The notes beneath the pieces are model-generated. The model did not search any database. It was not told the origin of the DNA and worked only from the letters and a program-made list of their open reading frames with translations. The translations under genes were made by a program, and so were the position numbers. A stretch of DNA of 13,549 bases, taken from contig QHRI01000054.1 in NCBI GenBank assembly GCA_003221375.1, positions 1 through 13,549 of the forward strand, written 5' to 3'. Positions 83 through 10,353 of the stretch are shown here, piece after piece; the stretch's first letter is position 1; the number at the start of each line of letters is the position of its first letter. This DNA comes from Verrucomicrobiota bacterium. GTDB lineage: Bacteria > Verrucomicrobiota > Verrucomicrobiia > Chthoniobacterales > UBA10450.

Positions 83-3000
83 ATGACTAAAAACGTGCTA
101 AATAAACTCGGATTCCTTGGCGTCGCCCTTGTGGCGAGCGTGGGATTTCCTCTAATTTTTGCATCGAACACACTTGCTCAGTTGCCGGCTCCGGCGGCTC
201 CCGCTCCGGGTGCGCCAGCGCCCACTGCTGAGGTCGAGCGTGTGGTTGTGACCGGTTCGAATATTCCAACAGCGGAAGAGACCGGCCCCAATCCAGTCGA
301 CACGTATCGTCCGCAGGACATCGAGAAACTCGGTATCCGTAACGCCACGGATCTGCAAGAATTTATCCCGCAGGAGGCGGGCGGAACCGTCAACCTGAAT
401 ATTGGCAACGGCGGTGATGGCACCGTTCAATTCAACCTGCGCGGCCTGTTGCCGAAGGAGACTTTGATTCTAATCGATGGCAAACGGGTCGCCTATGGCT
501 CGTTGGGCGTTGCTGGGTTTAGCGGAGGCCCGGACATTAACCTGATCCCGTTTTCCATGGTCGATCACGTGGACATTCTCAAGGATGGCGCCTCGGCTGT
601 GTACGGATCCGACGCGATCGCCGGCGTGATCAACTTCTTCCTGGTCCACAAATTCCGCGGCTTGGAGATCGGGGGTACCTATGGGAACACAAACATGGGA
701 GCATCCAATGACATGGGCGAATGGGAGGCATGGATCAAAGCCGGCACCGGAGATGACAAGACCGATATCGTAGTCGTCGCCGATTTCTGGCAGCGTACCG
801 GTGGCATTTTTAGTCGGGACCGCGACATTTCTTCCAATGGGAATTTCACTAAGTGGGGCGGACTAGATAACCGCAGTGGGAACTTCCCTGGCCACTATGG
901 AGGGTTCGTGGGTATCCGTCAGATTCCCAGTTTGTTCTTCAGCGCAAACACCCCGCCACCACATTCAGCTCCGAACGTGGCGACTTCTCCATTTTATGTC
1001 CCTGTGACCAGTTCCAAATTGAATAACGGAAACGGTTTCTTTAATGGGACCTTGCAGGGCTTAGATGGGAACTACGTCGCCTATAACTTCGCCTCCGTCA
1101 CGCCGAACCTGCCGCCGGGAGACCGTCAAGTGTACTACGGTTCGTTCACGCGGGACCTGTGCGATAAGTATCTGTCAGTATTTGCCGACTTCAAATATGC
1201 GCGCTCGTATTTCGATTCATCGCTGGCCGCTGTGCCATTTACGCCCGATCCATTTCGCGGATTGAAGGGTACTGACGGTACGCTTTATCCTGTCGGGCCT
1301 ACTGGTCCGTTCGGCATCAGTGTGCCAATCTCGAATGCGTTTAATCCGTTCACAGTTGGGGACACGACTCTGGTTATTAACGGAGCGCCGGTTCCGGTGA
1401 CCACCGGGATTCGGTTTCGCGGCATTAACGATACCGGCTCAAGGAGTGAAAAATTCACTTACTGGGATCAACTCTTTGACGTCGGGCTGCGGGGCGAGAT
1501 GGGAGAATTTGGCGATTACTTCAAGACGTGGAACTGGGAAATGGGTTTCCGTTACTCTCTCAACGAAGGGCAGGACCTCTCCGTTGGCGAAGCGAGCCAG
1601 CCTGGGTTGCGAGACGCCCTATTCGATACAGACCCACACACGGCGTTTAATCCGTTTGGTGGCTTTTTCCGCCAAAACACCGCAGCCGCCAGGCAACAAG
1701 TTTATGTGACATTGCATAACTCCGGCGAGTATGAGTTGCCTATATATTACGCCACCATTAACGGCGACCTGTTCAGTCTTCCTGCCGGGCCAGTCTCCTT
1801 TGCCATTGGTGGCGAGTACGACGCGCCGAGATTCACTCGCGATCGTGACGCGCTCAATAACACGTTTAACTCCATTGGTTCGGTGGACGGGCAAAGCTTC
1901 CGTGTGAACCGGGATATCTGGGGAATCTACGAGGAAGTGCGTGTGCCATTCACCAGTCCTACGTGGAACTTCCCGGGGTTCTACAGCTTTGAGGTGGACT
2001 TTGCTGAGCGAGAGGAATGGTACAGCAATAACACCTCTGCGGTGCTGCCTTCTGGCCTCTTTCCGGCGGTGCCCGCGTTTCACAGCACGTATAATGCGCA
2101 AAAGCCGAAGATATCACTGCGCTGGCAGCCGATTGATCCCAAGTATATCGGCGCAGTAACCCTGCGTGGCAGCTATACCGAGGCATTCCATGCGCCAACG
2201 CTGGGAGAACTTACACCTGCGGGCTCGCAAAACTTCCCGATCGTGGCGGATCCGTTTTCCTCTCAAACCGAGCCTCAGATTGAGGAACGCGTTTTAGGAA
2301 ACCCCGCTCTGCATCCCGAGGTGGCGTATGAATGGACCTACGGCGCTGTTTACAGCCCGAAATGGATTAAGGGCCTGACGCTGAGCGCCGATTGGTGGCA
2401 CATTGATATGCGCGACATTGTGGCATTCCCAGGTGCGAACACCCTCATCGTGGAGAATCCCCCGACCCCGGGTGTTGTGCAAAACGGGCCGGTTGTTTTC
2501 CGTAGTGCGAGTTCAATTCCAGGCGAGGCTGGGCCAGTCCAACTGGTTATCGATCTCAACCAAAACCTTTCTGGCGCAGTCTTGGAAGGTCTCGACTACG
2601 AAGCGATCTATATTCTGGATTCGACGATCTTTGGCGGCGGGGATTGGGGAAGGTTAACCACCACGGTCAATGGCACCTGGCTATCCCGGTTTGAGTTTCA
2701 GCCTGGCCCCAACAACAAACGGTTCGGTATCGCAGGCACATTCCAGCCGCCGGGAGCTACTCTAACCAATTCGACGCCGTGGAACCGAGCCAACGCCAGT
2801 ATCTTCTACGATGGTCCGGCTGACACGTGGATGCAGGGATTGGATGTCGGCGCGGTAGTCCACTGGATCGGTCAGTACGAGGATGATAATGCCACTCTGA
2901 CAGGATCGACAAAGCTCAACGAGCCTAGAAGTGGCCCGTTCGGTGGCGGTGGTGAAGTTCGCGCGCGGAAAATCTCCGCGTGGACCACACTGGATCTGAT

Positions 3001-3307
3001 CCTGAACTACACATTTAACCTGCCACCGCCAGCGCCGGCCGAGGTACCTGGCTATGCCAAGGATGGTGGGAAAAACGTGAAGATGAAGGATGGCAAGGAG
3101 AAGAACGTGGTGCCCGTCTCAACAGCCGAATATGGCTGCAGCAACTGGCAGTGGTGGCTCAATAACACGACCGTCACGCTGGGAATGCAGAACGTATTGG
3201 ATGAGGATCCGCCGTTTGTGGGAGGTTCGTTCGAGAATGGTTACGACGAGTCGGTTGCTAACATCAAAGGCCGCTTCTGGTACGTCGGCTTAAAGAAGAG
3301 ATTCTAG
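83..3307 (+). CDS. TonB-dependent outer-membrane receptor
   Basis: This is a complete TonB-dependent receptor of 1074 residues from the ATG at 83. Numbering below counts from the alternative ATG at 71. A signal peptide covers about residues 5-36, with likely cleavage after NTLA, and is followed by a Pro/Ala-rich linker (37-52). The segment ERVVVTGSNIP (56-66) fits the start of the plug and TonB-box region. The plug shows the family motifs ETLILIDGKRV (130-140) and DILKDGASAVYGSDAIAGV (168-186). The rest is a large beta-barrel ending in the NVLDEDPPF motif and a terminal Phe, the usual outer-membrane assembly signal. A short Lys/Gly-rich loop (about residues 991-1015) lies just before the last strands. 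Such receptors import chelates, vitamins or oligosaccharides using TonB energy. The substrate is not evident: no TonB/ExbBD or periplasmic partner is in the window. The following genes are separated by a terminator and look unrelated. Confidence 0.95.
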   Translation: MTKNVLNKLGFLGVALVASVGFPLIFASNTLAQLPAPAAPAPGAPAPTAEVERVVVTGSNIPTAEETGPNPVDTYRPQDIEKLGIRNATDLQEFIPQEAGGTVNLNIGNGGDGTVQFNLRGLLPKETLILIDGKRVAYGSLGVAGFSGGPDINLIPFSMVDHVDILKDGASAVYGSDAIAGVINFFLVHKFRGLEIGGTYGNTNMGASNDMGEWEAWIKAGTGDDKTDIVVVADFWQRTGGIFSRDRDISSNGNFTKWGGLDNRSGNFPGHYGGFVGIRQIPSLFFSANTPPPHSAPNVATSPFYVPVTSSKLNNGNGFFNGTLQGLDGNYVAYNFASVTPNLPPGDRQVYYGSFTRDLCDKYLSVFADFKYARSYFDSSLAAVPFTPDPFRGLKGTDGTLYPVGPTGPFGISVPISNAFNPFTVGDTTLVINGAPVPVTTGIRFRGINDTGSRSEKFTYWDQLFDVGLRGEMGEFGDYFKTWNWEMGFRYSLNEGQDLSVGEASQPGLRDALFDTDPHTAFNPFGGFFRQNTAAARQQVYVTLHNSGEYELPIYYATINGDLFSLPAGPVSFAIGGEYDAPRFTRDRDALNNTFNSIGSVDGQSFRVNRDIWGIYEEVRVPFTSPTWNFPGFYSFEVDFAEREEWYSNNTSAVLPSGLFPAVPAFHSTYNAQKPKISLRWQPIDPKYIGAVTLRGSYTEAFHAPTLGELTPAGSQNFPIVADPFSSQTEPQIEERVLGNPALHPEVAYEWTYGAVYSPKWIKGLTLSADWWHIDMRDIVAFPGANTLIVENPPTPGVVQNGPVVFRSASSIPGEAGPVQLVIDLNQNLSGAVLEGLDYEAIYILDSTIFGGGDWGRLTTTVNGTWLSRFEFQPGPNNKRFGIAGTFQPPGATLTNSTPWNRANASIFYDGPADTWMQGLDVGAVVHWIGQYEDDNATLTGSTKLNEPRSGPFGGGGEVRARKISAWTTLDLILNYTFNLPPPAPAEVPGYAKDGGKNVKMKDGKEKNVVPVSTAEYGCSNWQWWLNNTTVTLGMQNVLDEDPPFVGGSFENGYDESVANIKGRFWYVGLKKRF

Positions 3308-3540: not shown

Positions 3541-3648
3541 ATCCGTGCTATCCGGGTAATCGGTGGTTCGTCCGAAAATTTGGTGTTCACTTGTGAAATT
3601 CGTGAATCGCTGTACCGGGAAGCCGCAGATTATGCGGATGACACGGAT
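3541..3648. repeat. Inverted pair of ATCCG / CGGAT dispersed repeats
   Basis: The left arm (3541-3569) begins ATCCGTGCTATCCGGGTAAT. The right arm (3619-3648) ends GCGGATGACACGGAT. Reverse-complemented, the left arm aligns to the right arm with one gap and a few mismatches: GATTACCCGGAT against GATTATGCGGAT, then CACGGAT in both. Between them lies a short palindrome, TTCACTTGTGAA (3586-3597). A direct copy of the right arm recurs inside gene A at 4219-4248 with 25 of 30 bases identical. Confidence 0.65.
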
Positions 3649-3675: not shown

Positions 3676-6021
3676 TTGCCTTCTACTGCGTGCCATCACC
3701 AGTGGTTCAACTCTTGTATTTTTTGGATTTGTGTCCATTTGTGTTCATTCGTGGTTAGATTTTTTGAGCGGACGAACTGGCTTTGGGGATTCCTTCTAAT
3801 CGTTCTAGTTTTCGCGGCATATGTGAGGGTTTTTAATGCCGGCTTCCTCTGGGACGATGAATCACATTTGACCCAGAATCCGTGCATTGTTGGTCCGCTT
3901 GGATTAAAGGAAGTCTGGACCACCACGCGAGCAGTCTATTACCCGCTGGTACTTACCACATTTTGGATTCTGCATAACTTCGTCGGTCTGTCGCCGTGGC
4001 CATACCACCTCCTGAATGTGCTTTTGCATGCCGGATCGGCTGTCTTGCTATGGCAGGTCTTACGCCAGCTTACCGTTCGCGGTGCCTGGCTGGGAGCGGC
4101 CCTTTGGGCTTCGCACCCGGTGATGGTTCAATCAGTCGCCTGGGTAACTGAGCTCAAAAATGCGCAGTCAGGCCTCTTTTATCTTCTGTCGATTTTCTAC
4201 TTTTTGAAATGGGATAAGGAAACCGCGGATTGCGTGGATGACACGGATAGTTCGGAACGAAATTCGCCAGACGAACGGACGGAATCGCCGTTTCGGCGAT
4301 GCTCCCATTCTCCGATTCTGTGGTTTGCTCTTTCTTTACTCTTCTTCATCCTGGCTACTCTAAGCAAGCCTTCGGTGGTCATGTTGCCTGTCGTGCTTGC
4401 GCTCTGTATCTGGTGGAAAACAGGACGAATTAGTCGCCGTAATGTTTTGGCGCTTGTTCCATTTTTGCTGATATCGGCGGTTGCCAGCATCTGGACGATC
4501 TTCGAGCAAAAATTTCACGCGGGCGCGATTGGTGCTGAGTGGGCGCAGACATGGCCGGAACGGCTTATCGTCGCGGGACGCGCGGTATGGTTTTACCTGG
4601 CGAAGCTGGTCTGGCCGGATCCGCTCATATTCATCTATCCACGATGGGAAATTGATTCGTCAAAGCTAACGGCCTATTTCCCGCTTCTCGCGGCTTTCAT
4701 CGGACTGCTCGTTTTGTGGTTAGTCCCAGCGAAATGGAGTCGTGCTGTGTTCGTCGCGGCAGCGTACTATGTGGTTTCCTTGTTTCCAGTGCTCGGTTTT
4801 TTCAACGTTTTTTTCTTCCGTTACTCCTTTGTGAGCGATCATTTTCAGTATCTGGCGAGCATGGGACCTCTCGCGCTCGCTGGCGCGGGGATTGTAACGG
4901 GTTGTAGCCGCCTCGCTGTGTCGAGGCGCTTTCCAGAGTTGGCATCAACACGGCGAAACAGCGCCGTGGCTACAACAGCGCTCGTTGGGGTCTCTGCGTT
5001 TTTTTTGTTTTCGCTTGGATTGCTGACCTGGCGACAGACTGCTATTTACCACGATGTGGTCACGCTGTACACGGCAACATTGACTAAGAATCCGAATTGC
5101 TGGATGGCACATTACAATTTGGGCATCGCTCTTAACGAGCGGGGAAAGACCGATGAGGCGATCACTCATTATCAGCAGGCGATTGAGCTGCGGTCAAATT
5201 ATGCCGAGGCGCATTACAATTTGGGCCGGCTTCTTGTACAGAAAGGCCAACTCGACGGCGCGGTCGCTCATTACGAAAAGGCATTGGAAATAAACCCTGC
5301 TGATGCAGAAGCTCGCAACAATCTTGGTGTTACGCTTTTTGGGACTGGACGCGTGGACGACGCAATTGCTCAATATGAGAAGGCGCTGAAGGTCCAGCCA
5401 GATTACGGGGAAGCCTCCTGCAATCTGGCGAACGCGCTTGTTTCGAAAGGAGATTTTGATGGCGCTATCGATCGTTACCTGGCATGCCTCGCGCTATCGC
5501 CGAGTCAGGCTGAGCCCCAGTACAATCTAGCGAGCGCCTTGCTCCGCAAGGGTCGATTGGACGAAGCGATTGCTCATTACCAAAAAGTGCTCGAGTTGCA
5601 GGCGGATAACGCAGATGCTCATGCAAATCTGGGAAGCGCATTTCTCGCAAAAGGCCGCGTCCGAGAAGCGATCGCTGCTTATAGAAATGCCCTTAGGATT
5701 TCGCCCGAAAACGTGCCCGCGCAAAGTAATCTAGCTTGGATCCTGGCAACATCCTCAGACTCGTCGCTCAGAAATGGATCAGAGGCTGTTCTTCTGGCTG
5801 AACAGGCCGACTCGGAAAGCTCTCGAAGTGAAAATCACCCGATTGTTCTACGTATCCTGGCTGCGGCCTACGCCGAATCTGGCCGGTTTGCTGAAGCTAC
5901 GAAAACTGCCCAACAGGGTTTACAAGAGGCAAAGATCCAAGGCAATTCCACGTTGTCCAACGCTCTCCGGGATGAAATTGCGCTCTACGAGTTGGGATTA
6001 CCTTACCATAAAGAACAATAA
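3676..6021 (+). CDS. TMTC-like GT-C membrane protein with six TPRs (gene A)
   Basis: Up to 781 residues. About ten transmembrane segments span residues 37-455. The first extracytoplasmic loop carries Asp60-Asp61, and the next conserved loop reads HPVMVQSVAWVTELKN (147-162). This layout matches the DUF1736/TMTC family, whose animal members are O-mannosyltransferases; sugar transfer from a lipid carrier is inference. Six contiguous 34-residue TPRs run from 474 to 677. They are followed by a region of about 100 residues shared with genes B, C and D (SNLAWILATSSDSSLRNG, then LAAAYAESGRFAEA). The start is uncertain: 3676 is a TTG two codons after an in-frame stop, there is no Shine-Dalgarno, and no in-frame ATG occurs before residue 149. 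A GTG at 3751, just before TM1, is a plausible alternative. Two loops, residues 181-210 and 409-434, are repeat-derived and make it 29 and 16 residues longer than its paralogue at those points. It converges on gene B. Confidence 0.85.
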   Translation: MPSTACHHQWFNSCIFWICVHLCSFVVRFFERTNWLWGFLLIVLVFAAYVRVFNAGFLWDDESHLTQNPCIVGPLGLKEVWTTTRAVYYPLVLTTFWILHNFVGLSPWPYHLLNVLLHAGSAVLLWQVLRQLTVRGAWLGAALWASHPVMVQSVAWVTELKNAQSGLFYLLSIFYFLKWDKETADCVDDTDSSERNSPDERTESPFRRCSHSPILWFALSLLFFILATLSKPSVVMLPVVLALCIWWKTGRISRRNVLALVPFLLISAVASIWTIFEQKFHAGAIGAEWAQTWPERLIVAGRAVWFYLAKLVWPDPLIFIYPRWEIDSSKLTAYFPLLAAFIGLLVLWLVPAKWSRAVFVAAAYYVVSLFPVLGFFNVFFFRYSFVSDHFQYLASMGPLALAGAGIVTGCSRLAVSRRFPELASTRRNSAVATTALVGVSAFFLFSLGLLTWRQTAIYHDVVTLYTATLTKNPNCWMAHYNLGIALNERGKTDEAITHYQQAIELRSNYAEAHYNLGRLLVQKGQLDGAVAHYEKALEINPADAEARNNLGVTLFGTGRVDDAIAQYEKALKVQPDYGEASCNLANALVSKGDFDGAIDRYLACLALSPSQAEPQYNLASALLRKGRLDEAIAHYQKVLELQADNADAHANLGSAFLAKGRVREAIAAYRNALRISPENVPAQSNLAWILATSSDSSLRNGSEAVLLAEQADSESSRSENHPIVLRILAAAYAESGRFAEATKTAQQGLQEAKIQGNSTLSNALRDEIALYELGLPYHKEQ
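3728..3757 (+). repeat. Three tandem decamers at the start of gene A
   Basis: Three successive ten-base units are TTTGTGTCCA, TTTGTGTTCA and TTCGTGGTTA. I recognise this as a dispersed Verrucomicrobiota repeat piece. It lies inside the longest open frame of gene A and is translated as ICVHLCSFVV, so the N-terminus of that frame is repeat-derived or the true start lies within or after this repeat. Confidence 0.55.
4219..4248 (+). repeat. Dispersed repeat inside gene A, direct copy of 3619-3648
   Basis: This 30-base segment matches 3619-3648 at 25 of 30 positions, including an identical 12-base end (GATGACACGGAT plus flanking G). It encodes ETADCVDDTD (residues 182-191) in a loop between two membrane helices. 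The paralogue at 10325-12196 has about eight residues in the same loop. Confidence 0.75.
4284..4300. repeat. Perfect hairpin within the gene A loop insert
   Basis: ATCGCCG, TTT, CGGCGAT forms a perfect 7 bp stem with a 3-base loop. It lies 35 bases after the 4219-4248 repeat, within the same extra loop of gene A (residues 204-209). It looks like a second repeat piece joined to the first. Confidence 0.55.
4901..4976. repeat. Two-arm REP-like inverted element inside gene A
   Basis: The element is 76 bp, bounded by 9 bp terminal inverted repeats GTTGTAGCC (4901-4909) and GGCTACAAC (4968-4976). Each end continues into its own hairpin: CGCCTCG with CGAGGCG (4909-4915 and 4922-4928), and CACGGCG with CGCCGTG (4949-4955 and 4962-4968). 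The two 28-base arms, read inward, match at 21 of 28 positions. Six of the seven differences form three compensated base pairs; the seventh is in the loop (CTGTGT or CTGTTT). It is translated in frame as residues 409-434 of gene A, in a loop before the last membrane helix. Confidence 0.8.
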
Positions 6022-6211: not shown

Positions 6212-7045
6212 TTATTTCTCCGGAAACGTTTGACGGAGCGGAAGCTGTATCTGGTAAAGAGCGATGTCTCCTTGAAGGATCTTCGCGAGCTGGAGATTGC
6301 CTTGGCTAGTCGCTATCTCCTTAGCTCGTTGAGCGGCGTTGATCGCTTCGGAGAACTGGCCGGCCTCCGCGTAGGAAGCCGCGAGAGTTCGGAGAGAATT
6401 CGGATCTTTGCCGCCCGAGAGTTGCACGGTTTGTTCGGCGACTTCGATTGCCCGATTCCCATCGCGAGTTGAAGCATCCGAGGAAGTCGCGAGAAGCCAC
6501 GCCAAGCTGTTGCGAGACTTGGGGTCGTGCGGGTAGATGCGTGCCGCATGCTCGTACTCGGCGATTGCATCTTTCTGTAATGCCCTTTGAAGAAACGCGT
6601 TGCCCAGAATCATGTGGAAGCCCGCGTCGTTTGGCTGGGTCGCAGCCGCCTTGTGCCATTGTGCAATCGCCTCCTCCGTGCGGCCCTGCTGAAATAGAAT
6701 GCTGCCAAGATTTAAATATGGGTCGCCGTAGTCAGGTCGCAGCTTCATCGCTTTCTCGTAATGCCCGATTGCTTCACTTAGCCGGCCTTTTCGGACGAGG
6801 GCAGTAGCAAGACTATTCTCGATGAGCGCCCCACCAAGATTGTAGTGGGCGGCAGCGGTGCGCGATCGAATTTCCAATGCCTTCTCGAAGTGCGAAATCG
6901 CGGTATCCAATTCGCCATGTCGCAGGAAAAGATCGCCGAGACTGTTATGTGCCATGTCGTTGTTAGTCGTAACAGCCAACGTGTGGTTCCAGAGCATCTC
7001 GCTGTTTTTCCAATACGACGTCTGCACAAACGCGCGCGAACTCAA
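6212..7045 (-). CDS. TPR half of frameshifted gene B (3' part)
   Basis: This frame holds the C-terminal half of gene B. It contains four TPRs (residues 28-61, 62-104, 105-138, 139-172 from the nominal start) and then the shared C-terminal region: NSLAWLLATSSDASTRDG (179-196), LAASYAEAGQ, and an end at LPLRQTFPEK. The nominal start at 7045 is a TTG with no ribosome binding site, inside what is a transmembrane helix in the paralogues. Upstream of it the same frame still reads helix-like sequence (FCTAIAAATIIAL) that aligns with gene C. It is therefore most likely not an independent gene but the continuation of 6963-8339 after a frameshift. The second TPR carries a nine-residue insertion also found in gene C. 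Confidence 0.6.
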   Translation of the reverse strand: MSSRAFVQTSYWKNSEMLWNHTLAVTTNNDMAHNSLGDLFLRHGELDTAISHFEKALEIRSRTAAAHYNLGGALIENSLATALVRKGRLSEAIGHYEKAMKLRPDYGDPYLNLGSILFQQGRTEEAIAQWHKAAATQPNDAGFHMILGNAFLQRALQKDAIAEYEHAARIYPHDPKSRNSLAWLLATSSDASTRDGNRAIEVAEQTVQLSGGKDPNSLRTLAASYAEAGQFSEAINAAQRAKEIATSQGNLQLAKILQGDIALYQIQLPLRQTFPEK

Positions 7046-8339
7046 CGCAATGATAGTCGCTGCCGCGATAGCGGTGCAGAATGCCTTGTAGTAGTATCGT
7101 CATCAGATCCGTGGTGCCCCACGTAATCAGCACATACAAACCGATCTGCGGCAGGTAAGTGTAGCGGTCCGCGCGCGCTTGCTCGCCGCTCTGTACCAAG
7201 CCGATCACAGGCACAAGCATCACGACATACCAAAACCAGCCAGTGAAAATGTACGGTCGTTCTTTCCCCCAAAGGACTGCCAACAGGCTGACTGAGATCA
7301 GAAACGCAATTGCCAAAAGAACCTGCCAAAAAGGCAGTTGGTCGTTGGGATTCGGATAAAAAGCCCCCAGCCGTGCGGGCCAGAACATCTGCCAAATGTA
7401 GGCAATGTAACTGACAGCTGCAGTGTTCAGTCTCCACATGAATGGCAGTTGCTCGATTGCTTCTGTGCTGTAGACCTGTGCCAGCATGGTTGCTACGCAA
7501 GAGAGAGCGGACAGTGCGATCAACGGAATCTTCTCTATTACAAGACGACTAACTATTCGCCACTGACTATTGATCGGCGATTTCCGGCCTCCCGCCTTCG
7601 CCGAGGCTGCGGCGGGCAGGCTGATTTCTGCCGCCTGACTCCTAATTCTCTTAAGCGGCCAGTAATCCAGGAGCAGAAGTACGAACGGCAGCGTTACGAG
7701 CATGGGTTTCGACATCAGACCGAGAGCAAAGAACAACGCCACTGTCACATAGCGAGCAACGGATGGCTTGTGCACATAACGCACATAGGCGCCTAGCGTA
7801 AGCATGAAAAAAACGGCGCTGAGCACATCTTTGCGCTCCGAGACCCATGCGACAGATTCGACGTGCAACGGATGAATGGCGAACAGCGATGCCACGAAAG
7901 CGCTTTGCCAAATACTGCCAGTCCGGCTCGAACCTCCGGTCATTTGATCGAGCACAAGAAAGAGCAGTAATACGGCTATTGTATGAAGCAGCACATTGGT
8001 GGAGTGATGCCATCCCGCCTGCAATCCGTATAACTCGCAATCGAGCATATGCGAAATAGTCGTTAGCGGATGCCAGTTTCGTGCATGAGTATGAGTAAAT
8101 GCGTCGACCAGTCCACGTGTTGTGAGGCCCTGTGTGATCCGCGGGTTTTCGTGCACGTACACGTGATCGTCGAAATCGACGAAATCGTGCTGCAGAGTTT
8201 GACCAAAAACGAACCAAATGATTGCAACTAAAGCGATACAGACATAAAGAGATGCGAATCTCAACAAGGCGCAGTTTTCTAACCGACTGTTGGAGAACTC
8301 GCGCGTGTCCTTCTTGGATCTGTTTTTTACCCTGCTCAT
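6963..8339 (-). CDS. Membrane half of frameshifted gene B (TMTC-like GT-C domain)
   Basis: This is the N-terminal half of a TMTC-like protein. The ATG at 8339 is one base past the gene C stop (TAAGATG), which suggests translational coupling; a TTG at 8351 would also be in frame. TM1 covers about residues 28-46. Asp57-Asp58 lie in the first extracytoplasmic loop, and HPLHVESVAWVSERKD falls at 156-171. LMSKPMLVTLPFVLLLLDYW and GWFWYVVMLVPVIGLVQ mark later helices. The cytoplasmic-type loop after that DYW is 27 residues longer than in gene D and contains a hairpin repeat. After ITWGTTDLM (about residue 413) the frame leaves homology and ends at 6963 in unrelated residues, because of the frameshift at 7034-7118. 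If the shift is real the product lacks its TPR arm; TMTC-type activity without TPRs would be unusual. Confidence 0.7.
   Translation of the reverse strand: MSRVKNRSKKDTREFSNSRLENCALLRFASLYVCIALVAIIWFVFGQTLQHDFVDFDDHVYVHENPRITQGLTTRGLVDAFTHTHARNWHPLTTISHMLDCELYGLQAGWHHSTNVLLHTIAVLLLFLVLDQMTGGSSRTGSIWQSAFVASLFAIHPLHVESVAWVSERKDVLSAVFFMLTLGAYVRYVHKPSVARYVTVALFFALGLMSKPMLVTLPFVLLLLDYWPLKRIRSQAAEISLPAAASAKAGGRKSPINSQWRIVSRLVIEKIPLIALSALSCVATMLAQVYSTEAIEQLPFMWRLNTAAVSYIAYIWQMFWPARLGAFYPNPNDQLPFWQVLLAIAFLISVSLLAVLWGKERPYIFTGWFWYVVMLVPVIGLVQSGEQARADRYTYLPQIGLYVLITWGTTDLMTILLQGILHRYRGSDYHCVEFARVCADVVLEKQRDALEPHVGCYD
7034..7118 (-). other. Frameshift zone in gene B
   Basis: Between the conserved Trp codon (7119-7121, in ITWG) and the conserved AFVQ (its Ala codon at 7031-7033), gene B has 85 bases. 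Genes C and D both have exactly 90 between the same landmarks. The net loss of five bases moves the reading frame. The switch must lie between a TGA in the downstream frame (about 7098) and the point where homology resumes, close to a run that reads TACTACTAC on the minus strand. A sequencing or assembly error remains possible. Confidence 0.75.
7587..7621. repeat. GC-rich hairpin repeat inside gene B
   Basis: GCCTCCCGCC (7587-7596) pairs with GGCGGGCAGGC (7611-7621), a 10 bp stem with one bulged C. It encodes SLPAAASAKAGG (about residues 240-251) of gene B, in a loop that gene D lacks. I recognise CCCGCCTTCG...GGCGGGC hairpins as a common dispersed repeat in soil Verrucomicrobiota; this is recollection. 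The adjoining stretch at about 7557-7575 (CGCCACTGACTATTGATC) also looks repeat-like. Confidence 0.55.
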
Positions 8340-8340
8340 C

Positions 8341-10353
8341 TTAACCGCCAAGTGAGTTTTGCCAAAGCGGCAGGCGTCGGCGATAGAGCATAAGGTCTGT
8401 TTCGAGGCGGTTTGCCAGTCCTCCTTTCCCCTGCATTCGAGCTATGGCTATGGCTTGCTGGGCTACGCCCAAGGCTTCAGGGAATCGGCCGGTCTCCGCA
8501 TACGCAGCTGCCAGCGTGCGGAGAAAGCGTGGTTCTCTACCTCCTGAAAGCGCGACTGCTACTTGGGCCAAGTCGATCGCTTTGGCGCCGTCGCGGATTG
8601 AGTCATCAGAAGATGTCGCTAGAACCCAGGCAATATTGTTGCGAGAATGGGGATCTTCGGGAGCTAGTGCCAATGCTTGTTCGTAATGGATAATCGCCTC
8701 CCTTGGCGAACCCTTCTGCAAAAGCGCGTTACCGAGGCCAGTATGGGCATTCGCGTCACTGGGTTGCAATTTGAGAGTCCACTCCCAATCCGCCATTGCT
8801 TCATCGACGCGGCCTTTGTGAAAAAAAACGCTACCGCGGTTGTAAAAAGCATCCGCATAATACGGTTGCAATGCTATTGCTTCGTCATAGTGCGCTATGG
8901 CTTCATCGGATTGTCCTTTTCGGGCGAGAGCGTTGGCGAGGTTCATTTGCATAAACGCCGAACCGACGTCGTAATGGGGATCCAGCTTACCGGACCTGAT
9001 CCTTAACGCGGCTTCAAAATGCGAGATCGCCTTGTCTAGTTCTTCGCGATCGACGCACAGGTATCCAAGATTATTGTGGGCAACGTCGTTGTCGGACGTC
9101 ACCGCAAGAGTGTGAGTCCAAAGAGTTTCGCTGTTGCGCCAGTAGGAAGTCTGAACGAATGCCATCCACGCCAAAACAGCAACGATTACTACCGCGATAG
9201 CTACAGCAAACTGCGACCTCGGCCGACGGGCTCCTAGCATGTCAGCAACGAGCCAAATCGCGAGCAAAAAGAGACCGACAAGTGGCAGGTAGGTATAGCG
9301 ATCTGCATGACCTTGTTCTCCGACTTGGACGATGCCGATGACTGGGACGAGCATAACGAGGTACCAAAACCACCCTGTGAACAGGTAAGGCTGCTTACGT
9401 CGCAAAACCATTGCCGCTGTTGTGATGGTTAGTAGGAACCCGGTTGCAAGAATAACTTGCCAAATTTCCAGGCTGCCATTTGGATGAGGATAGAAAACGG
9501 CGAGGCCTGTCGGCCGCAAGGTTTGCCAGAGGTAAATCGGGTAACTTGCGACCGCGTTTTCGACTCGCCAGAGGAAGGGCAACGGTGGAATCGCGCCAGT
9601 AGCACGTTTTTGCAGGATAAATGTGATGGCTCCGGCGGCTGCGGAAAGAACAAACAACGGAACCTTTTCGAGAAAGAGGCGTCCTATTGTCTGTGTTTGA
9701 TCATCACACCCTGAGATTGTGGCGTCTCCTGTTGAGGGGAACTGTTTAAAACGATTAAGCGGCCAGTAATCCAAAAGGAGAAGGACACAGGGAGTGCTTA
9801 TCAGCATTGACTTGGACATGAGGCCGAAGGTGAACATGATTGCCACTGTCAAATAACGCGCGTTTGATGGCGTACGCACATAACGCACATATGCGATTAA
9901 CGTGAGCATGAAGAACACTGCGCTGAGCACGTCTTTTCGCTCGCTTACCCATGCGACTGATTCGACATGAAGTGGATGAACCGCAAATAACGCAGCGACA
10001 ATCACACTCTTCCAAATTGCGCCGGTCATTTGCCGCAGCACACAAAACAAGAGGAGCGTTGCGATAGTATGCAAAACCACGTTCGTAGCGTGATGGCCGC
10101 CAGCGTTCAGGCCATACAGCTGGCAATCCAGCATGTGAGAGATAGTCGCCAACGGGTGCCAATTACCTGCGTGTGGACTGACAAAAGCCCGTGCAATGCC
10201 TTGTATCGTTAGGCCAGCCCGAATGGCAGGAGTGTTATAGACGTACAAATCGTCGTCGAAGTTAACAAAGTCGTGACGGACTGTTTGACCAAAGACAGCC
10301 AGACTGATTCCGGCAAACTTTATGTTACTCACTGTGAGGCGGCGAATGGCCAT
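8341..10353 (-). CDS. TMTC-like GT-C membrane protein with four TPRs (gene C)
   Basis: Complete, 670 residues, and the closest paralogue of B. Asp33-Asp34-Asp35 sit in the first extracytoplasmic loop (FVNFDDDLYVYN). HPLHVESVAWVSERKD falls at 126-141. Further helices include LLLLDYWPL and GWFWYLVMLVPVIGIVQ. The membrane domain ends near residue 400. Four TPRs follow at 421-454, 455-497, 498-531 and 532-565. The second has nine extra residues, as in B. The shared C-terminal region begins at NNIAWVLATSSDDSIRDG (572-589). The ATG at 10353 lies inside the end of gene D (29-base overlap), is preceded by an in-frame TAA two codons upstream, and has no clear Shine-Dalgarno. TM1 is short: only about 11 hydrophobic residues precede FGQTV, against about 17 in D. 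By family it should transfer a sugar from a lipid carrier outside the cytoplasm; substrate unknown. Confidence 0.88.
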   Translation of the reverse strand: MAIRRLTVSNIKFAGISLAVFGQTVRHDFVNFDDDLYVYNTPAIRAGLTIQGIARAFVSPHAGNWHPLATISHMLDCQLYGLNAGGHHATNVVLHTIATLLLFCVLRQMTGAIWKSVIVAALFAVHPLHVESVAWVSERKDVLSAVFFMLTLIAYVRYVRTPSNARYLTVAIMFTFGLMSKSMLISTPCVLLLLDYWPLNRFKQFPSTGDATISGCDDQTQTIGRLFLEKVPLFVLSAAAGAITFILQKRATGAIPPLPFLWRVENAVASYPIYLWQTLRPTGLAVFYPHPNGSLEIWQVILATGFLLTITTAAMVLRRKQPYLFTGWFWYLVMLVPVIGIVQVGEQGHADRYTYLPLVGLFLLAIWLVADMLGARRPRSQFAVAIAVVIVAVLAWMAFVQTSYWRNSETLWTHTLAVTSDNDVAHNNLGYLCVDREELDKAISHFEAALRIRSGKLDPHYDVGSAFMQMNLANALARKGQSDEAIAHYDEAIALQPYYADAFYNRGSVFFHKGRVDEAMADWEWTLKLQPSDANAHTGLGNALLQKGSPREAIIHYEQALALAPEDPHSRNNIAWVLATSSDDSIRDGAKAIDLAQVAVALSGGREPRFLRTLAAAYAETGRFPEALGVAQQAIAIARMQGKGGLANRLETDLMLYRRRLPLWQNSLGG

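Follow-up and report, generated by a model that had tools for sequence, protein, structure and literature searches.

A GTAG-tagged palindromic dimer, most likely copied by a RAYT transposase, in a variable loop of a membrane protein gene of a verrucomicrobial bacterium

How does a DNA palindrome built like a mobile, structured repeat come to lie within an open reading frame, and what becomes of it there? The question is raised by a contig of 13,549 nucleotides from a Verrucomicrobiota bacterium (QHRI01000054.1, assembly GCA_003221375.1), the whole of which we call the window. At positions 4901-4976 it carries a palindromic element inside gene A, whose homologues are named protein O-mannosyl-transferase by their source, one of them (P0094) under Candidatus Udaeobacter sp. 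We consider it very probable that the element is a non-autonomous mobile dimer of two repetitive extragenic palindromic (REP) sequences of the GTAG-tagged kind, found in Candidatus Udaeobacter and its relatives among the Chthoniobacterales, with a REP-associated tyrosine transposase (RAYT) as the most likely agent of copying, and that it landed in a loop of the gene A protein that tolerates it.

By direct count on the sequence, the element consists of two inverted 28-base units. The left arm GTTGTAGCCGCCTCGCTGTGTCGAGGCG and the reverse complement of the right arm GTTGTAGCCACGGCGCTGTTTCGCCGTG are alike at 21 of 28 positions, and the repeat finder pairs 4901-4923 with 4954-4976 at 83% complementarity (entry I10). 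The recount bears out the description given in an earlier note on this DNA, of a nine-base lead, a 7-bp stem and a 6-base loop in each unit. The lead is identical in both arms, with TGTAG at the head of each, and the loop differs at one base. Three stem pairs differ on both sides: 10-27 (G-C/A-T), 12-25 (C-G/G-C) and 13-24 (T-A/G-C). Folded as single-stranded DNA, the element is predicted to form an outer 8-bp stem bearing two 7-bp hairpins with 6-base loops, at -21.7 kcal/mol (z = -4.35). None of 200 dinucleotide shuffles folded as well (mean -12.27 kcal/mol, standard deviation 2.17).

Many further copies lie in the assembly from which the window comes (G000; 2.17 Mb in 455 contigs, 59% complete). 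Among the 42 matches listed for the 76-base query, 28 have an expect value (E) below 0.001, and 19 are near full length, with sizes of 67-83 bp. The copies have leads and loops in common, and the same two arm types, GCCTCG/CGAGGC and CACGGCG/CGCCGTG. The earlier note had read the both-sided stem differences as compensatory changes. Pairing is indeed kept despite them; three separate events in this copy are nevertheless ruled out. Scattered substitutions aside, all 19 full-length copies of the genome differ between their arms in the same way, so that what is seen here is a single, old divergence of two arm types. In four copies (L025, L028, L031 and L033) the right-arm loop encloses a further short palindrome, roughly CCCGCCGCGGCGGGCAGGC.

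The element is also widespread in relatives. A model of it (R1) has matches in all 35 genomes of the genus (the window's own included), in 35 of 38 others of the family and in 8 of 44 others of the order; the scan scored at most 41 candidates per genome, so that copy numbers are lower bounds. A pattern with three stem pairs left free occurs at 56 places in named genomes, of which 55 are labelled as Verrucomicrobia, Spartobacteria, Chthoniobacterales or Candidatus Udaeobacter; the remaining one is labelled as Kiritimatiellae. The free pairs are Watson-Crick at 52, 56 and 53 of these places, the middle one being TA at 45, CG at 10 and GC at one. A chance palindrome or a plain coding segment is ruled out by copies dispersed in this way, within G000 and among relatives.

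Do the stems covary? We aligned 67 elements on one strand, taking one copy per duplicate (alignment A5): the 19 copies from G000 (A2) and 48 hand-picked matches, leaving out weaker or nested ones such as L237, L052, L148, L178, L187, L190 and L195. One locus search, which feeds both this alignment and the decay finding on L053 given below, covered 65 loci. In the alignment 96.6% of cells are paired and 6 of the 22 pairs have changed on both sides (23 cells), a level of covariation reached by none of 500 shuffles under a control that is lenient to related sequences. Every row was picked up by a model or a pattern built on this element, which biases the pair counts towards structure. The 19 G000 copies by themselves have both-sided changes in two pairs (three cells). 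Within the lead, T3, G4, T5, A6 and G7 are invariant or at least 90% conserved across the 67 elements. Further genome copies and covarying stems, the two signs of a structured repeat for which the earlier note had suggested looking, are thus both present.

What might move such an element? RAYT genes (family NF047646) are found in 33 of the 35 genus genomes, above the cut-off in 30. We examined 30 RAYT loci, 24 in frames of fewer than 300 residues and 6 in longer frames. At 20 of the 24 short-frame loci a TGTAG-tagged hairpin lies within 250 bp, on both sides in 11; tagged arms number 43 within 250 bp against 9 in the 53,032 bp further off. None of the six loci in longer frames has a tagged hairpin within 250 bp. 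The stems differ from one RAYT to another.

One RAYT lineage is flanked by the element itself. We searched 23 of the 30 loci with R1, leaving out L308-L314. In G007 the gene (L216, 161 residues) has an R1 match on each side, at 55.7 and 36.9 bits. Its protein (P0126) scores 92.1 bits against NF047646 (cut-off 80) and has the HUH motif PDHVH in its translation, the conserved tyrosine being taken to have its usual role. It resembles E. coli TnpA-REP (PDB 4er8) purely by sequence match (E 2.4e-7, 33.9 bits). The RAYT of G001, 68% identical to that of L216, has R1 matches of 37.0 and 59.6 bits on either side. That of G033, with an interrupted frame, is 64% and 70% identical over two pieces, and is flanked by matches of 69.4, 65.4 and 38.2 bits on one side and 60.2 and 79.1 bits on the other. 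All three nearest members of the lineage are therefore flanked by copies, as the earlier note had anticipated, in species other than that of the window. At the remaining 20 of the 23 loci the best R1 match is 32.2 bits. Together with the dispersed copies and covarying stems, this supports the earlier reading of the element as of REP type and recognised by a RAYT.

We turn now to the gene that holds the element. The frame of gene A, 781 amino acids from a TTG start, was confirmed to be open from 3676 to 6021, through the element at residues 409-434 as previously claimed, and the element is probably read as about 26 residues of the protein. Its proposed position, in a loop just before the last membrane helix, is plausible; the AlphaFold model is poor there. 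The mean predicted local distance difference test score (pLDDT) is 64.6, and values fall below 50 at residues 344-410. This stretch includes almost the whole element (386-411 in P0001 numbering), and the lack of a helix at 393-405 accordingly lends the loop slight support.

Comparison with orthologues from the genus and family indicates that this loop is variable. Both anchors of the site were found in 15 of 30 loci (the G000 copy is counted here and at the sites below). The loop is 35-36 residues long in 6 of the 15; elsewhere it holds this element (L054), a variant of it (L052), a different tagged repeat (L064) or a decayed copy (L053). Among 120 homologues listed, the exact peptide CSRLAVSRR is present in 4 and a drifted form, C[SN]RLAA[SPL], in 32 more. 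These counts come from two strict patterns; a looser one, matching 100 of the 120, was set aside because it also matches unrelated residues. The earlier note had held that conservation of the segment as protein among orthologues would speak against a mobile repeat. This is partly the case, with 36 of the 120 listed keeping the exact or drifted peptide. The drifted peptides and the decayed element of L053 imply that old copies drift as protein. Elsewhere in the window, the second copy of an imperfect repeat (3618-3648 and 4218-4248, 84%, entry D9) falls within gene A, in a further hypervariable loop where homologues have peptides such as RPRITRITRIKDTEDQ.

Is gene A exceptional? Among 33 places examined in G000, four copies lie in frame within genes having homology on both sides, that of gene A and three others (see the table); the remainder were checked for open frames only, as found at L033 and L038. 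The in-frame copies differ in frame and strand and their peptides are unrelated, so that what they share is nucleic acid and not one peptide. At the first site in the GlcD/iron-sulphur (Fe-S) gene, 16 of 20 loci have both anchors: nine have four residues there, four have 10-12, two have this element and one has a GGTAGGG-type repeat. At the transferase site (19 of 20 loci with both anchors) four have tagged arms, seven a GGTAGGG motif and eight neither. A repeat found at this site in L269 is matched in every one of the 35 genus genomes, with as many as 36 matches in a genome, in a scan that scored 26 candidates at most. At the DAO site (again 19 of 20) tagged arms occur in five, a GTCATnnCGAGC repeat in nine and neither in five. 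The GTCATnnCGAGC... repeat, which has no GTAG tag, lies in frame at the same codon position of the DAO gene in L247-L250, L252, L254, L258, L259 and L263.

Taking the four sites together, there are 22 tagged arms in 6,885 bp of loop against 21 in 120,348 bp elsewhere in the same frames; G000, which guided the choice of sites, supplies 6 of the 22, and a number of the arms scored as elsewhere belong to a second site in the GlcD/Fe-S gene. At this second site (between FDKWF and VILWDD in L035 and its orthologues) a TGTAG or CTACA motif is present in 12 of the 13 loci, out of 20, that have both anchors, with stems that clearly differ between loci. One of the GlcD/Fe-S sites lies between two domains.

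We compared inserts with the surrounding gene in nine pairs, including the window against L053 and L052. In five pairs of species the insert agrees at 62/78, 74/84, 62/72, 51/54 and 54/60 positions, against 75%, 80%, 77%, 75% and 76% for the surroundings. The corresponding values are 59/63 against 91% for L251/L255 and 30/30 against 98% for L266/L267. Four-fold sites in the pairs that share an insert agree at 0.46-0.56. That shared inserts tend to be more alike than their surroundings fits better with repeated insertion or conversion than with plain descent; a structural constraint may also be at work.

The account that we favour may be put as follows. A RAYT, a Y1/HUH transposase, would recognise the TGTAG lead and hairpin in single-stranded DNA and copy the REP dimer. 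One copy, presumably moved by a RAYT of the flanked lineage, would have landed in the variable loop of gene A with a frame and length that kept the gene open, adding about 26 residues. It would persist because the loop tolerates extra sequence, and would be tolerated rather than useful. More generally, copies that leave the frame open in a tolerant loop would survive, be translated, and later drift or be replaced; in other lineages the copy would have drifted, or the loop be short.

Some observations pull the other way. Within gene A the element of the window matches that of L053 at 56/78 positions, with flanks at 76%, and that of L052 at 52/78, with flanks at 81%; with the 36 peptide starts among 120 homologues listed, this has the look of an old insert that is drifting as protein. 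G000, an assembly 59% complete, yielded no RAYT of the matching lineage; one may lie in the missing part or have been lost. The one intact RAYT of G000 (L012, 106.7 bits) is flanked by sibling repeats, not by this element (32.2 bits on the one side, and 13.9 bits on the other, where the contig ends within the repeat), while stops interrupt a second Y1 gene. The RAYT of L213, 52% identical to that of L216, has a 56.1-bit match with its arms in reversed order, from which it follows that RAYT type and element type are not paired one to one. The sibling tagged repeat, TGTAGACGCTTCG..., lies at L012:588-669 and 27-72, and recurs at 2937-3018.

Could the hairpin instead be selected for a function within genes, as RNA or DNA, for instance by slowing the ribosome at the boundary of a domain or of a membrane helix, or by binding a protein? 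The position of one GlcD/Fe-S site between two domains, the near-constant tagged motif at the second site and the similarity of inserts in the five species pairs would all suit such a function. Yet fresh insertion accounts equally well for that similarity, many congeners have a short loop instead (9 of the 16 loci at the first GlcD site and 6 of the 15 for gene A), and where the sites are filled the repeats may be unrelated, in varying frames and on either strand, with evident decay in L053 and L052. We therefore regard selection of the hairpin as unlikely. The loop might, more simply, be an ordinary variable coding segment inherited with the gene, its palindrome a by-product of the protein sequence. 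The shared peptide starts are what a single old insertion would leave, and some lineages have indeed inherited the insert by descent. Against this, 27 other places in the genome match at E < 0.001, within and between genes, and orthologous loops are short or filled by other tagged repeats, which makes an origin as plain coding sequence barely credible. Movement by another transposase, with nearness to RAYT genes arising by chance, would be consistent with the failure to find a matching RAYT in G000, and in-frame use inside genes is how Rickettsia palindromic elements behave (extracts of the review PMC10969869). The TGTAG tag and hairpin, the concentration of tagged arms beside RAYT genes, and the both-sided flanking confined among the 23 loci searched to the three nearest members of one lineage speak instead for a RAYT, and leave this explanation very improbable.

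A side observation, possibly of larger reach, concerns the RAYT-like domains in very long frames. In congeners, complete Y1 transposases are embedded in frame within other genes, and only two of them score above the NF047646 cut-off of 80 (L219, 82.9; L316, 85.0), the others reaching 66.8-76.9. Against the recG of G023, some relatives align straight through the insert; in others, G000 among them, the alignment falls into two pieces on either side of it. In 19 comparisons of the recG insert, core amino-acid identity is 50-82%, and four-fold sites agree at 0.25-0.42 in the core and 0.36-0.46 in the host gene; the end linkers agree at 0.59-0.92 (16-26 four-fold sites) in 14 of the 19. By these figures the core is conserved as protein and the linkers often as DNA, as if the ends mattered as DNA. 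In the other five comparisons (L331, L332, L337-L339) the linkers do not agree in this way and the cores are 0.50-0.53 identical, as though a different transposase lineage occupied the place. By pattern, an HUH-like motif is present in 16 and a tyrosine motif in 17 of the 19. Further congener recG loci in the set are L323-L342. L318, and L319 and L321, appear similar by eye (metH, carB). Filled and empty recG occur in one assembly in G022 (C334, C129) and G021 (C12, C178), either as paralogues or through mixed assemblies.

Such cases suggest the notion of coding landing pads in this clade, in which the same codon position would be entered repeatedly, in frame, by unrelated mobile DNA ranging from REP hairpins of several families, about 20 residues long, to whole Y1 transposases. 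One insert would favour or be replaced by the next, linkers would be rebuilt, and the transposase cores in recG, carB, metH and alaS would be selected as protein. We offer this tentatively, as a real possibility that falls somewhat short of likely. With the same loop of one protein short, or filled by this repeat, or by others, in its many species, a very common soil lineage provides natural experiments. Through them it can be tested how short mobile DNA turns into protein, whether insertion is targeted or merely tolerated, and at what cost to the protein.

The features are collected in the table. Outside gene A, a palindrome CCCGCCTTCGCCGAGGCTGCGGCGGG was seen by eye at 7588-7622 of the window, within a neighbouring minus-strand gene (frame 6963-8351), and is possibly another translated repeat.

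Table. Positions of the element, its parts and related in-frame inserts (window coordinates unless a locus is given)
Feature	Position	Strand	Evidence
Head-to-head dimer of two GTAG-tagged REPs (BIME/REPIN type; names expanded in the text)	4901..4976	.	repeat finder, own-genome matches, fold, alignment, model matches
Left lead with TGTAG tag; outer stem 5' half, partner 4969-4976	4901..4908	+	fold
Left hairpin, 7-bp stem CGCCTCG/CGAGGCG, loop CTGTGT 4916-4921	4909..4928	+	fold, pair counts
Spacer; length and sequence vary among copies	4929..4948	+	alignments
Right hairpin, 7-bp stem CACGGCG/CGCCGTG, loop 4956-4961	4949..4968	+	fold, pair counts
Right end, complementary to TGTAG lead; outer stem 3' half	4969..4976	+	fold
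Gene A, membrane protein with C-terminal TPR repeats; element = residues 409-434	3676..6021	+	frame, TPR families, homologues
In-frame element, PMT_2/ArnT-like transferase	L021		homology both sides
In-frame element, DAO-type flavin adenine dinucleotide (FAD) oxidoreductase	L025		homology both sides
In-frame element, GlcD-like FAD oxidase fused to Fe-S part	L035		homology both sides
Y1/RAYT-like transposase inside recG	L219:133-3081, L224:301-2985, L225:145-2994	+	host gene named by family both sides
Y1 transposase inside carB	L315:1336-5454, L320:810-4886	-	NCBIfam both sides of insert
Y1 transposase inside metH	L316:1537-6393	-	NCBIfam both sides of insert
Y1 transposase inside alaS	L317:1743-5285	+	NCBIfam both sides of insert
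Transposase inside rarA-like AAA ATPase	L322:2379-4433	-	transposase recognised by eye; RAYT family absent from its list

How does the element compare with known systems? With two inverted REPs and a spacer as the repeated unit, the element is like a bacterial interspersed mosaic element (BIME) or a REP doublet forming hairpins (REPIN), which are REP dimers mobilised by RAYTs. RAYT genes between inverted REPs were found in the RAYT work of Nunvar 2010 (PMC2817692), and a single-stranded route comes from published work on TnpA-REP (PMC8266576). The BIME and REPIN names imply an extragenic position by the definition of REP, whereas some copies here are intragenic.

Rickettsia palindromic elements, reportedly described by Ogata in 2000, lie inside genes as well. 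They are about 150 bp long, with a conserved encoded peptide, and are found in frame (PMC10969869). The present element is like them in lying in frame in unrelated genes, four in G000, apparently tolerated in the protein. It differs in its length of 67-83 bp, its use of several frames and both strands, and its RAYT partner in relatives. It works like the Rickettsia elements but is not one of them.

The closest likeness is to the GTAG-tagged REP superfamily, characterised by a TGTAG lead, head-to-head dimers with the tags outside, association with RAYTs and several families per genome (Di Nocera et al. 2013, PMC3733652). The element shares the lead, the tags-outside dimers, the RAYT association, the several families per genome and probably translated copies inside genes; its 7-bp stem and 6-base loop fall within the superfamily ranges of 5-13 bp and 2-20 bases, its stem variants keep pairing, and G000 holds many copies, with the 19 near-full-length dimers. 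A RAYT flanked by cognate repeats is present in G007, G001 and G033 but was not found in G000. The placement is by these described features rather than by stem sequence against the 24 published GTAG families. The same work already reported that GTAG REPs inside genes are translated, and that none of its genomes held more intragenic GTAG repeats than Opitutus terrae, also of the Verrucomicrobia; its authors suggested that an insert in a flexible linker or loop may be neutral. In open-licence PMC, where absence counts for little, we found no paper on palindromic repeats of Udaeobacter and, among those listed, none on topic by title for intragenic REPs or a transposase domain within recG or alaS; for transposases inserted in frame in Verrucomicrobia, the one paper found is already cited here. 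Di Nocera et al. describe different REPs at about the same site in recB of two Xanthomonas species, and in the extracted text this single case stands alone, against several genes over many species here. The conclusion that emerges is that the kind of repeat, a translated intragenic GTAG REP, is already known, and that what is extended is the scale on which the same sites are refilled across many species.

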